The notes under the pieces were generated by a model. The model was not told where the DNA came from. It made no database searches and was given only the letters and a program-made list of their open reading frames with translations. From Brevibacillus panacihumi W25 (lineage in GTDB: Bacteria > Bacillota > Bacilli > Brevibacillales > Brevibacillaceae): 64,000 nucleotides of DNA. The stretch covers positions 2,120,579 to 2,184,578 of the forward strand of contig NZ_KI629782.1 in the NCBI RefSeq assembly GCF_000503775.1, written 5' to 3'. Numbering within the stretch: the first letter of the stretch is position 1; every line of letters begins with the position of its first letter. The position numbers and the translations under genes were made by a program. Shown piece after piece: positions 41,079 through 45,484 of the stretch.

Positions 41079-42194
41079 ATGGCAGATCCACGGATTAACG
41101 AACTTGCGAGCCGGCTTATTCGTTACTCGCTGAACCTGCAAAAAGGGGAAAAGCTGCTGATCGAAAATACGGGGCTTCAGCCGGAGCTGGTGCGTGCGCT
41201 GGTCCGAGAAGCTTTTGCCGTCGGTGCGCTCCCTCTGGTAACGCTCAAGGACCAGGAAGTGCTGCGTGCTTTATATGAAGGAACAAGCGAAGAACATATG
41301 GCTTTGATGGCGAAGTACGAATATGAGCGGATGAAAGATATGGACGCCTACATCGCCATCCGCGCCTACGAAAATATCAACGAGCTGTCGGATGTACCCG
41401 AAGACAAGATGGGCATTTACGCCCGCGTTCTCTACCAAAAGGTACATACGAATGAACGCATTGCCAACAAACGCTGGGTGGTCCTGCGCTACCCGAACAA
41501 ATCGATGGCGCAGCTGTCCAACATGAGCCTGGAGCGCTTTGAAAACTTCTACTTCGACGTCTGCAATCTGGACTACGCCAAAATGTCCCGCGCCATGACA
41601 CCGCTCAAGGAACTGATGGACCGCACCGACCGCGTTCGCATCGTCGGGCCGAAAACGGATCTGCGCTTTTCCATCAAAGGAATCGGCGCGATCAAGTGCG
41701 ACGGCAAGCGCAACATCCCGGATGGCGAGGTGTATACGGCTCCTGTACGTGATTCGGTCGAAGGAACGATCTACTATAACGCCGCGACCAACTACAACGG
41801 CACGACCTTCACCGACGTGCAGTTTACTTTTAAAGAAGGAAAAATCGTCGAAGCGACCAGCTCCAACACCAAGGCCTTGAACGACATCCTGGATACGGAC
41901 GAAGGCTCGCGCTATATCGGCGAGTTTGCGATCGGCTTCAATCCGCATATCCTCCACCCGATGCTGGATATCTTGTTCGACGAGAAGATTGCCGGCAGCT
42001 TCCACTTCACACCGGGCAACGCGTACAATGTGGCGGACAACGGCAACCGCTCCTCCGTCCACTGGGATCTGGTGCAAATCCAGCGCCCTGAGTACGGCGG
42101 CGGGGAGATCTGGTTCGACGATGTGCTGATCCGCAAAGACGGACGGTTTGTCCTGCCGGAGCTGGAAGGCTTGAATCCGGAGAATCTCGTGTAA
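41079..42194 (+). CDS. M29 family aminopeptidase (AmpS/thermophilic type)
   Basis: 371 aa metalloaminopeptidase, cytosolic, releasing N-terminal residues from peptides. YSLNLQKGEKLLIENTG at the N-terminus and NIPDGEVYTAPVRDSVEGTIYYN (Glu ligand region), IGEFAIGFNP, ITEP-equivalent HFTPGNAYNVADNGNRSSVHWDLVQIQRPEYGGGEIWFDD (His and Asp ligands) are the M29 signature. Ribosome site AAGGGG before ATG 41079. Its 3' 180 bases plus terminator occur a second time, decayed, at 43655-43792. Confidence 0.92.
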   Translation: MADPRINELASRLIRYSLNLQKGEKLLIENTGLQPELVRALVREAFAVGALPLVTLKDQEVLRALYEGTSEEHMALMAKYEYERMKDMDAYIAIRAYENINELSDVPEDKMGIYARVLYQKVHTNERIANKRWVVLRYPNKSMAQLSNMSLERFENFYFDVCNLDYAKMSRAMTPLKELMDRTDRVRIVGPKTDLRFSIKGIGAIKCDGKRNIPDGEVYTAPVRDSVEGTIYYNAATNYNGTTFTDVQFTFKEGKIVEATSSNTKALNDILDTDEGSRYIGEFAIGFNPHILHPMLDILFDEKIAGSFHFTPGNAYNVADNGNRSSVHWDLVQIQRPEYGGGEIWFDDVLIRKDGRFVLPELEGLNPENLV

Positions 42195-42226
42195 TTTATA
42201 GGGATCATCAGGTAAAGAAAACGTAG

Positions 42227-42262
42227 ATAGAGCCGCCTCTTCTCTGAGTACGGCTCTATGTT
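42227..42262 (+). terminator. Terminator of the M29 aminopeptidase gene
   Basis: TAGAGCCG (42227-42234) pairs with CGGCTCTA (42250-42257), followed by TGTTTT. A decayed copy of the same hairpin is at about 43755-43785. Confidence 0.8.
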
Positions 42263-42268
42263 TTAGGT

Positions 42269-43054
42269 TCAGATACGAAGATAAGACTCTATAGAATTTT
42301 TCATATGATTAACGAGTGCTATTACCTCTCTGTCCAGTCCCTCCCACTTATCCACATACTCTCCGCGATAGGCTTTTCTTGCTAAGTTGAGTAAAGTCGC
42401 ATGCTCTGTAGGCAACTGAGGTATAGCCCATTGCGCAGCTGTATCTTTTGATGCGATTTCACCAACAGCCACTGTCAGCCACATCCGTGCAAGGGTTAAC
42501 AATACGTTTCGTTCGTCGCCCTTGATGCCCTCCATTAATCCTGGCAAAGACTCCATAATCGCTCTTCGAATATCTGCCATTGGCACGGGATCAAGTACAT
42601 CGGAAGCATCAGAACCAAACAGAGGAACGCTATTCTTTATTACTTGTGCTAAAACAATAGCCAAATCAGGGTCATACGTTGGTTCCGGAATTTTCCCATT
42701 CTCAAACTCATCCCTGAGCCACTCACCGTAGAGATATTCATTTTTTGGCGGAAATCGCCAAGGGACAACATCTCCATGGTTTATTACCGTAACTTCAAAT
42801 GGTCGCACAGAATCTGTATTTCCTATCTTTCCGGATATATGCATGAGTCTGTCTGTTAGTTTTCTGCGAATTTCTTCACTCAAGCTTTGATTTACAACCA
42901 CTAGGACATCTACATCACTATTCATGCGTAAGCCACTAGTTACTGCAGAACCAAATAAATATACCCCGACTATTGCACCGCCAAGCAATTCCTTTACAAC
43001 TTCACATGCTTGGATCGCTTGCTTAGGTATTTTTTCGTTATTCAAGTCACTCAA
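42269..43054 (-). CDS. AadA/ANT(9)-like aminoglycoside nucleotidyltransferase
   Basis: 261 aa. LFGSAVTSGLRMNSDVDVLVVV is the nucleotidyltransferase active site (GSA..SGL and the DVD metal-binding pair); PFEVTVINHGDVVPWRFPPKNEYLYGEWLRDEFENG and RNVLLTLARMWLTVAVGEIASKDTAAQWAIPQLP match AadA/Spc enzymes that adenylylate spectinomycin and, for AadA, streptomycin. TTG 43054, ten bases after GGGAGGAG, gives the family's normal length. Less GC-rich than its flanks and located between duplicated segments, so likely an inserted gene. Whether it confers resistance is untested. Confidence 0.85.
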   Translation of the reverse strand: MSDLNNEKIPKQAIQACEVVKELLGGAIVGVYLFGSAVTSGLRMNSDVDVLVVVNQSLSEEIRRKLTDRLMHISGKIGNTDSVRPFEVTVINHGDVVPWRFPPKNEYLYGEWLRDEFENGKIPEPTYDPDLAIVLAQVIKNSVPLFGSDASDVLDPVPMADIRRAIMESLPGLMEGIKGDERNVLLTLARMWLTVAVGEIASKDTAAQWAIPQLPTEHATLLNLARKAYRGEYVDKWEGLDREVIALVNHMKNSIESYLRI

Positions 43055-43100
43055 TAGCTGCAAGCTCCTCCCGTCTAAAATGTACAATACTGCTGATTAT

Positions 43101-43577
43101 TCATTCTATCGTGCTTTCTTTCACCGTACCATCTTGCATCAGGCGGGATTCCACAAGCTCTCCTTTTTCATTCTTGCTGTAAAAAGTAAAGCTCAGCACT
43201 TTTTCCTCTTTATCAAACTCGATAAATAATTGTGATTTTAGGGAGCCGTCCCCCAATCCCTGCATGTCGACGTCATCCATGTTATCCGGTGCTGTATACG
43301 TGTAGCCTTCCTTTTTTCCAAAATCATATCGCCACATCTTGGTATCGTTCATGGAGCTCGTTACCTCGGCATCATAGTCGACTTCAAGCAGGTTTTTTAC
43401 TTCCTCTTTGGACATTCCCAGCTTCAATTTTTCCTTTACAACTGTAGCAGTCAGATCAACGTTTATCACTTGCTTTTCTGTCGGGGCCGGAGCAGACGCA
43501 GGCTCATTGCTGCAGCCGGTAAGGGACAACCCCCCACATAAAAGCAGCATACTGGCAATCGTTCTGAATTTCAGCAT
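43101..43577 (-). CDS. Lipoprotein, SmpA/BLIP-like
   Basis: 158 aa. Lipobox LSLTGC with Cys22; a Ser/Ala/Pro linker; then VKEKLKLGMSKEEVKNLLEVDYDAEVTSSMNDTKMWRYDFG, the MTKEEV.xLLG-type motif common to SmpA/OmlA and BLIP-like beta-sandwich domains; a beta-rich end. Attached to the outer face of the membrane. Role unknown. It precedes the ANT(9)-like gene by about 46 bases on the same strand and lies within the same duplicated borders. Confidence 0.65.
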   Translation of the reverse strand: MLKFRTIASMLLLCGGLSLTGCSNEPASAPAPTEKQVINVDLTATVVKEKLKLGMSKEEVKNLLEVDYDAEVTSSMNDTKMWRYDFGKKEGYTYTAPDNMDDVDMQGLGDGSLKSQLFIEFDKEEKVLSFTFYSKNEKGELVESRLMQDGTVKESTIE

Positions 43578-43654
43578 TCATCATTTCTCCTTTCTTCTGT
43601 TAACCCCCGTTTGTAAAGACGCCTCCATTTGGAAATATGTTACATCACCAACTT

Positions 43655-43792
43655 GGCAACGCGGTACAATGTGACGGACAACGGTAACCGTTCCTCCGTC
43701 CACTAGGATCTGTGCTAATCCAATGCCCTGAATCATCTGGTAAAGAAAACGTAAATAGAGCCGCCTCTCCTTAGAGTGCGGCTCAAAGTTTT
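43655..43792 (+). pseudogene. Decayed second copy of the M29 aminopeptidase 3' end and terminator
   Basis: 43655-43731 aligns with 42015-42091 (GGCAACGCG, then TACAATGTG.CGGACAACGG.AACCG, TCCTCCGTCCACT.GGATCT and GCCCTGA shared, with point changes and one-base indels); after a gap, 43732-43792 aligns with 42201-42262 (ATCATC.GGTAAAGAAAACGTA and ATAGAGCCGCCTCT). It carries frameshifts and an internal stop. From 43793 to 44083 I see no supported gene. Confidence 0.8.
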
Positions 43793-44083
43793 CTACTTGA
43801 TCATTCTACTCTGCATGTCGACATCATTACATTTGATGGCATGAGGATGAAGGACCCGCAGGAAATGAAGCAAAAATCACCCCTGACGGTGTCGATGCCG
43901 CGGCTCTCACGATCTTTCGTATCTCTGTTGTATATTTGCGCAATTCATAAGAAATCTGAACTGCGAAGCTATGCTATTCTGCAAATACACCTTTTCCTGA
44001 GTACACGAAGCTGCAGGCACGAGCATTGTATCAAGCACACAGAATCGTGGAAAACAAACGAAAATGTAAGGGGAGAATGTATC

Positions 44084-44494
44084 ATGAGAAAGATCCGTAT
44101 CGCTTTCTGGATATGCACCATCCTATTCTCGCTGGGGATGTTATTCCCCACTATTTCAGCCGTTCTGGGAGAGAAGGAAACAGTGAAGTTCATAACGGAG
44201 CACTTCGGGTACCCGGCCTATTTCGTCTTTTACAGCGGAATCGTGAAAGTACTCGGCATTGCGGCGATCCTGATTCCCGGCTACCCCCGAGTGAAAGAAT
44301 GGGCTTACGCGGGATTGGCGTTTGACTTGATCAGCGTCGTTTATTCGAGCATTGCCGTCGGCGATTCAATTATTGCAGGCTGGCCGATGCTCATATACTT
44401 CCTGCTGTTGGCCGGATCGTATGTGTATTATCACAAAATGAAAGCTTCCGTCAGTACAGCTGCCACTGACACCATGTCTCAAAAGCTGCAATAA
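44084..44494 (+). CDS. DoxX-like membrane protein
   Basis: 136 aa, four membrane helices (IAFWICTILFSLGMLFPTISAVLG; FGYPAYFVFYSGIVKVLGIAAILIP; WAYAGLAFDLISVVYSSIAVG; WPMLIYFLLLAGSYVYYHKM). The YPAYF..YSGIVKVLGIAAIL stretch is typical of the DoxX-like family. Function unsettled. ATG 44084 follows GGGGAGAA. The upstream open frame from 43841 has no site. A terminator follows. Confidence 0.75.
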   Translation: MRKIRIAFWICTILFSLGMLFPTISAVLGEKETVKFITEHFGYPAYFVFYSGIVKVLGIAAILIPGYPRVKEWAYAGLAFDLISVVYSSIAVGDSIIAGWPMLIYFLLLAGSYVYYHKMKASVSTAATDTMSQKLQ

Positions 44495-44520
44495 GCGCCT
44501 CCCTCAAAATGAAACGGCTC

Positions 44521-44556
44521 GAGCCCTGCCTAAATCCGGTAGGGCTCAGCTTTTTT
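44521..44556 (+). terminator. Terminator of the DoxX-like gene
   Basis: GAGCCCTGCC pairs with GGTAGGGCTC (44538-44547), followed by AGCTTTTTT. Confidence 0.8.
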
Positions 44557-44590
44557 ATCGCAAGCACACCTGCATTTGGAGCAGAAAGCT

Positions 44591-45484
44591 CTATTCCGTT
44601 TGCAAATAATACTGGATCAATCCATCCATCACATCATCCAGCTTGCGGAACTCGAAGCCCGTCGCAACAGCCTTGCTTACATCAGGAGACAAGGATGCCT
44701 CGAAGTTATACGGGGAGGTCGATTCCTTCTCCGTCGATGGAACAATGATTGCTTCTGTGTTTGCGGCATGTGCGATGCGATCGAGCAATTCCTGCAGCGA
44801 GAGATCTCCGGGAGAGCCGGGATTGTAGGGACCCTGAAGCTTTTGATCAGCAGCGAACTGGATAAAACGGGCAGCATCCTCGGAGTCGATATAGCCAAGT
44901 CTGCTTTCGGGATTGTCGATTCCGATCGGCAGACCCGCCTTCACTCGATCGACATGAAACTGCAAGCGTCCCGTGTAGTCGTCTTCCCCGATGACTAGCG
45001 GAAAGCGAAATGCAGTTGCTGGTACATCGCCTGTCTGGAACAAGACAGCTTCTGCCTGTCTCTTCGTCTCTTTGTACCCTGAAACTCCTATGTATTCTCT
45101 GCGGGATTTCAACTCGATCGGGTAGGCATAAGGGTCGTATTCCGATTCTTGTTTGGATGTGCCATAATCGTAGACAGACATGGTAGACGTAAACAAATAA
45201 TGACCGACTCTACCTTTTAAAACTTCTAAAGCATCTTTAACCTCGATTGGAGAATAACAGGATTGATCGAATACACAGTCATAAAAGGTATCTGTGCTGC
45301 CAAAGGCTTCCTCCAACGTCTTCCTGTCCTCCCTGTCAATGATCAGACGCTGTACGCTGTCGCCAAACGGATCTGGCGTTCTTCCCCTCGTCGCAATGGT
45401 CACATCCCAGCCGCTGTCGACGAGATTGCGTACCAAGCGCTTTCCAAAAAACTGAGTCCCGCCAATCACCAATGCTTTTTTCAT
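44591..45484 (-). CDS. NAD-dependent epimerase/dehydratase family protein
   Basis: 297 aa extended short-chain dehydrogenase/reductase. MKKALVIGGTQFFGKRLVRNLVDSGWDVTIATRGRTP is the Rossmann nucleotide loop; YLFTSTMSVYDYG and GYKETKRQAE give the catalytic Ser/Thr and Tyr-x-x-x-Lys (GYKETK). The form resembles sugar-nucleotide epimerases and RNA-binding CSP41-type relatives; substrate unknown. ATG 45484 behind GAGGGATC. Monocistronic. Confidence 0.82.
   Translation of the reverse strand: MKKALVIGGTQFFGKRLVRNLVDSGWDVTIATRGRTPDPFGDSVQRLIIDREDRKTLEEAFGSTDTFYDCVFDQSCYSPIEVKDALEVLKGRVGHYLFTSTMSVYDYGTSKQESEYDPYAYPIELKSRREYIGVSGYKETKRQAEAVLFQTGDVPATAFRFPLVIGEDDYTGRLQFHVDRVKAGLPIGIDNPESRLGYIDSEDAARFIQFAADQKLQGPYNPGSPGDLSLQELLDRIAHAANTEAIIVPSTEKESTSPYNFEASLSPDVSKAVATGFEFRKLDDVMDGLIQYYLQTE

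Follow-up and report, generated by a model that had tools for sequence, protein, structure and literature searches.

Genes and features at the locus

Our window, by which we mean the whole stretch of 64,000 nucleotides analysed, comes from a Brevibacillus genome of 5.55 Mb in 11 contigs (G000), which we compared within a genus sample of 26 Brevibacillus genomes, G000 counted in. The nearest relative of G000 in this sample is B. panacihumi JCM 15085 (G016, record NZ_RHHT01000032.1), referred to below as the sister genome, and the nearest outgroup is G015, with 86% nucleotide identity in the peptidase gene. The features, in window positions, are:

41079–42194, plus strand: intact M29-family aminopeptidase gene, 371 aa (Pfam PF02073, E 2.2e-55)
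42015–42091, plus strand: copy 1, coding part of the duplicated stretch (repeat and own-genome DNA search)
42201–42264, plus strand: copy 1, downstream part with terminator hairpin at 42227–42259 (fold −17.7 kcal/mol, z −2.9)
42265–43105: ANT(9) insertion, in G000 and absent from G016 (boundaries approximate, by eye; GC 0.43)
42269–43054, minus strand: ANT(9) aminoglycoside nucleotidyltransferase gene (NCBIfam NF012212, 375.5 bits, cut-off 340)
43101–43577, minus strand: small lipoprotein gene, 158 aa (90% amino acid identity to G016)
43642–43731, plus strand: copy 2, decayed coding part, clear portion 43655–43731 (repeat and own-genome DNA search)
43732–43792, plus strand: copy 2, terminator part with intact hairpin at 43758–43784 (fold −19.0 kcal/mol, z −4.9)
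43811–43827, plus strand: 17-nt trace (16/17) of the lipoprotein interior 43260–43276, same orientation, a probable second-copy relic
44084–44494, plus strand: DoxX-like membrane protein gene, past copy 2 (Pfam PF13564, E 3.1e-15; 96% in G016)

The M29 aminopeptidase is matched in all 26 genus genomes. The DoxX gene found here is close only in G000 (100%) and G016 (96%) among the 26; one further match at E ≤ 1e-20 has 45% identity and lies elsewhere in G010. The stretch from the peptidase to an epimerase-like gene (42195–45484) is a variable spot, where the content of G000 and G016 differs from that of G015; in the latter, the peptidase is separated from the next shared gene by a putative 606-aa SH3/amidase-like ORF.

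A worn copy of the peptidase 3′ end

We find that 43655–43792 is a worn copy of 42015–42091 plus 42201–42264, terminator included, at 88% and 87% identity, much as a first-pass annotation of this DNA had proposed. The repeat resolves into two ungapped pairs, 42204–42264 with 43732–43792 (61 nt, 87%) and 42023–42071 with 43664–43712 (49 nt, 92%), and copy 2 used as a DNA query on its own genome gives E values of 2.9e-19 (77 nt, 88%) and 1.5e-13 (61 nt, 87%). Some 110 nt separate the two parts in copy 1; in copy 2 they adjoin directly, so that it has an internal deletion of about that length. A weaker extension carries copy 2 upstream to about 43642, and further peptidase similarity upstream of it reaches chance scores only. 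Both terminator hairpins fold strongly, in G000 and in G016. The annotation had also placed the ANT(9) and lipoprotein genes exactly between the copies, which is accurate to within about 80 nt, with the ANT(9) stop codon 4 nt past copy 1 and the lipoprotein start codon 64–77 nt before copy 2.

We rejected a dispersed repeat or transposable element as an account of the repeat. The 506 nt from 43578 to 44083 match, at E ≤ 0.1 in G000 and G016, only themselves, their orthologous stretch in G016 and the copy-1 segments, and so do not represent a dispersed repeat in these two genomes. Rfam contains no family that reaches its gathering score in the window.

In the sister genome, copy 1 is followed by the lipoprotein gene (90% aa), then by copy 2, which has the deletion as well, and then by the DoxX gene (96% aa); ANT(9) has no match anywhere in that genome at E ≤ 0.001. 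At that threshold a second copy is found in 2 of the 26 genus genomes, G000 and G016, with up to 16 candidates scored per genome; when the site was compared directly across G016 and the remaining 24 genomes (14 loci of 14–16 kb and 10 of about 4 kb), copy 2 appeared in G016 only. Since the sister genome holds both copies and the lipoprotein gene without ANT(9), the two intervening genes need not share one arrival. This evidence splits the earlier proposal: duplication followed by decay of one copy holds up, and arrival of both genes with the duplication does not. A relative with both copies and neither gene between them, which would speak against that proposal, exists as regards ANT(9) only, the lipoprotein gene being present in the sister genome. 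None of the 26 genomes shows the empty site predicted by the proposal, in which the DoxX-like gene would come straight after the peptidase end. Treating the resistance gene as part of the duplication event was very likely wrong.

The lipoprotein gene

The lipoprotein gene is kept by selection, judging from a dN/dS of 0.23 between G000 and G016. It occurs at 90% identity or better in 2 of the 26 genus genomes; weaker matches (26–36%) lie elsewhere in 9 of the other 24. Seven residues (W82, Y92, D104, G107, G111, F118 and G150) are invariant in nine aligned sequences, distant Brevibacillus relatives included, and neither Pfam nor NCBIfam returns a family at E ≤ 0.001. A structure model built from two sequences has a mean pLDDT of 71; a Foldseek search of the PDB with it gives nothing at E ≤ 0.001, the best match being BLIP-I (E 0.26), with chain E of the BAM complex at rank 37 (E 1.2), and we take these model-based likenesses as weak hints of a fold.

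The duplication is older than the species split

Column patterns were counted over the repeat itself. In the coding part, an alignment of the four copies from G000 and G016 contains 75 ungapped columns, of which 60 are constant, 5 pair like copies across the two genomes and 10 show other patterns; none pairs the copies within one species, and none shows the third possible pairing. Copy 2 has a 1-nt insertion and the internal deletion in common between the two genomes, and both copy-2 sequences are nearest to the G000 peptidase (134 of 154 summed matches), then to that of G016 (130), with the other 24 genomes at 126 or below. From the column pattern, the shared indels and this closeness, sequence comparison indicates that the duplication predates the split separating the window's lineage from the sister genome, and that it arose in their own lineage. 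Import of copy 2 from another Brevibacillus species is not supported, as copy 2 is closest to the G000 and G016 peptidases. The terminator part (54 columns) does not decide the age, since one site is for a pre-split origin and one against.

There is no sign of gene conversion between the copies in the coding part in G000 (0 of 75 columns). The copy-1 terminator part of G000 (42201–42264) looks closer to both copy-2 terminators than to copy 1 of G016, so that partial gene conversion is possible in this part, as is faster change in G016. In the copy-1 hairpin of G016, both arms of one stem pair are changed.

Tandem duplication and other routes

If the tandem unit comprised the peptidase end, its terminator and the lipoprotein gene, a second lipoprotein copy is expected past the second terminator. 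Eighteen nucleotides past that terminator, in both G000 and G016, lies a 17-nt match (16/17) to the lipoprotein interior in the same orientation. Of 300 shuffles, none reaches its score in G000 and one does in G016; of 206 control blocks of the window, one does in G000 and none in G016. On the reverse strand, lipoprotein similarity past copy 2 yields chance scores. In the sister genome, CTTGAT(T/C)AT directly follows both terminators and is, in copy 1, the 3′ end of the lipoprotein gene; just past the second terminator, the sequence looks like the lipoprotein 3′ end (CTTGATCAT compared with CTTGATTAT) and not like ANT(9), so that ANT(9) was probably absent when the duplication formed. In the second unit, the succession of peptidase end and terminator is clear, and the lipoprotein gene is represented by the 17-nt trace only. 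Between a single crossover and a tandem duplication of peptidase 3′ end, terminator and lipoprotein gene whose second unit decayed, these comparisons moderately favour the latter.

The order of copy 1, gene and copy 2 is predicted equally by a single-crossover (Campbell-type) integration, a point against the tandem reading. Here a circular DNA with a peptidase 3′ fragment and the lipoprotein gene would have integrated, the downstream fragment would have decayed, and ANT(9) would have come later. Such a crossover yields exactly a whole gene, an insert and a 3′ fragment, and the lipoprotein gene may itself be acquired, since no relative above 36% identity occurs in the other 24 genus genomes. 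However, it does not predict the lipoprotein trace past copy 2, present in G000 and G016, and a Pfam scan of 14 window proteins turned up no plasmid, integrase or phage family; we regard this route as unlikely.

Homology-facilitated illegitimate recombination would explain the abrupt start of copy 2 within the gene and immediately upstream of the lipoprotein gene. In this scenario a donor molecule bearing a peptidase end, a terminator and the lipoprotein gene would have recombined by homology within the peptidase gene on one side and been joined illegitimately on the other, so that the resident 3′ end was displaced downstream. This is a published process, and 3′-end displacement of this kind has been put forward for arrays of rhs and type VI secretion genes (PMC3240628 and PMC5361080). 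Against it, peptidase identity to G015 is even along the gene (74–85 of 93 per block in G000 and G016), without a step at the 3′ end, and the closeness of copy 2 to its own lineage argues against a foreign donor. A donor would then be of the same lineage, making this route hard to distinguish from tandem duplication, and we consider it quite unlikely. As in the rhs C-terminal displacement described in PMC5361080, a truncated 3′ end lies downstream of the intact gene with another gene between; here, by contrast, the gene concerned is a housekeeping-type peptidase rather than a toxin, and duplication is favoured over displacement by what appears to be a remnant of the intervening lipoprotein gene beyond the truncated end.

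Identity of the ANT(9) gene

The ANT(9) gene likely starts with TTG at 43054, preceded by the ribosome-binding site GGGAGGAG, in an ORF that stays open to 43087. Besides passing the ANT(9) subfamily cut-off, its product contains a nucleotidyltransferase domain (PF01909, E 5.5e-9) and an AadA C-terminal domain (PF13427, E 2e-36), and residues 28–266 align to the solved structure 6sxj (E 1.8e-50). With the cut-off passed and both domains present, the predicted activity is likely adenylylation of spectinomycin. The protein falls below the named-allele level, with 243 bits against a cut-off of 505 for the ANT(9)-Ic model and 70% identity to ANT(9)-Ia.

ANT(9)-Ia is a spectinomycin 9-adenylyltransferase found on plasmids and transposons of Gram-positive bacteria, and the window protein is like the plasmid-borne form, with 70% amino acid identity to it over 96% of the protein. 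The window gene, in contrast, is chromosomal, and its similarity to relatives ends near the ribosome-binding site. An ANT(9)-Ia gene on a Kurthia plasmid follows a site-specific integrase and a DUF6262 gene, whereas the neighbours of the window gene include no transposase or integrase family (none among 14 window proteins scanned with Pfam).

ANT(9) was acquired horizontally and probably inserted after the duplication

ANT(9) relatives occur in 5 of the 26 genus genomes (G000, G019, G020, G021 and G024); wider searches find them in 6 of 39 genomes of the order at E ≤ 1e-40 and in 8 of 398 of the class at E ≤ 1e-80, with G019, B. reuszeri DSM 9887, outside the latter list. By Nei–Gojobori counts, the dS of ANT(9) from G000 is 0.26 for G019, 0.47 for G026 (a genome from another genus), 0.54 for G021, 0.76 for G020 and 0.85 for G024, with dN/dS of 0.16–0.33. 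The peptidase dS between G000 and G019 is 2.69, effectively saturated, and 0.17 between G000 and G016; an alcohol dehydrogenase gene is likewise saturated between G000 and G019. The ANT(9) genes also sit at different loci. The G000 insert aligns with the four other genus ANT(9) loci over the gene only, as do 12 kb around the G019 gene with the other three; G020 and G024 share one site, the other genus sites being unrelated, the flanks in G021 match other genomes elsewhere, and those in G026 differ in a comparison by eye. A dS of 0.26 to B. reuszeri set against a saturated peptidase dS of 2.7, together with the different loci elsewhere, indicates by sequence comparison that ANT(9) is horizontally acquired.

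In place of about 20 nt of sister-genome sequence, including the last lipoprotein codons, G000 carries the ANT(9) insertion, with a GC content of 0.43 against 0.51 for the window. No repeat pair of at least 16 nt joins the two insertion ends, and the longest direct repeat within 36-nt stretches around both ends, where a target-site duplication was sought, is 5 nt (TCTAT), about the chance level. Most likely, ANT(9) was inserted after the duplication, in the window's lineage. Both genes do lie between the copies in the window, and the first-pass annotation had them inserted with the duplication, which would demand later loss of ANT(9) in the B. panacihumi line; this is very improbable against a sister genome with copies and lipoprotein gene alone, the lipoprotein-like rather than ANT(9)-like sequence past the second terminator, and the lower GC content and separate transfer history of ANT(9).

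We therefore favour, at a probability of roughly 0.68, a two-event explanation: tandem duplication before the split, then ANT(9) insertion in the window's lineage, the polarity of the second step being read from one sister genome, G016. The ancestor of G000 and G016 would have had the peptidase gene, its terminator and then the lipoprotein gene pointing back at the peptidase. A tandem duplication would have spanned from inside the peptidase 3′ end to just upstream of the lipoprotein gene, with the complete peptidase gene and a functional lipoprotein gene staying on the copy 1 side. In the decaying second unit the hairpin would have persisted, whereas some 110 nt from the peptidase and the sequence near the terminator would have disappeared, as would the lipoprotein gene apart from the 17-nt trace. 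After the split, an acquired ANT(9) gene would have been inserted in the window's lineage between the copy 1 terminator and the lipoprotein stop codon, a gain in G000 rather than a loss in G016.

Expression of ANT(9)

ANT(9) and the lipoprotein gene share a strand, with 46 nt from the lipoprotein stop codon to ANT(9); the peptidase terminator follows ANT(9), and this copy 1 hairpin folds on both strands. Promoter-like sites in the 2.7-kb region are at the chance level (4 found, 4.2 expected). Given the same-strand spacing, the two-way hairpin and promoter-like sites at chance, the simplest reading is that transcripts from the lipoprotein promoter probably read through into ANT(9) and end at the peptidase hairpin. 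One promoter-like site (43124–43096, minus strand) lies just upstream of ANT(9) and could serve it.

Implications

The locus is a new example of known processes, and of ordinary genome evolution, in which the sister genome lets the order of events be read as an old duplication scar followed by acquisition of a resistance gene. Genes between two repeats need not have arrived with the repeats. By settling between a gene and a terminator that were already there, the acquired gene illustrates how a chromosome gains a resistance gene. We found no description of this locus among the literature matches listed for B. panacihumi, Brevibacillus spectinomycin adenylyltransferase or duplication decay, nor among those for promoterless resistance-gene transfer or homology-facilitated illegitimate recombination.

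ANT(9) at other sites

Among the ANT(9) genes, sequence can be aligned from the stop codon back to a point some 17–30 nt before the start codon. Between G026 and the Kurthia plasmid ANT(9)-Ia the likeness, judged by eye, reaches further upstream, into sequence that looks promoter-like. One reading, which we hold to be doubtful, is that Brevibacillus ANT(9) spreads as a bare promoterless gene, from ribosome-binding site to stop codon, by a route without a recognisable mobile element. The same doubt attaches to its corollary, that the gene settles at unrelated chromosomal sites behind host genes and lives on host transcription. The repeated gene-only insertion at different Brevibacillus sites is the part that deserves a wider survey.

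Two of these sites have features of their own. At the site shared by G020 and G024 (L143 and L144), the ribosome-binding site lies, by eye, within about 10 nt of the T-run of an upstream terminator-like hairpin, which leaves no room for a promoter. In B. reuszeri (G019), ANT(9) adjoins a radical-SAM gene (L141:3766–4800), assigned by Pfam to Radical_SAM only and Cfr/RlmN-like in look. A stretch of roughly 250 nt upstream of that gene (L141:5110–5359), with no Rfam match at the gathering score, is partly matched in many genus genomes, in some as multiple copies.
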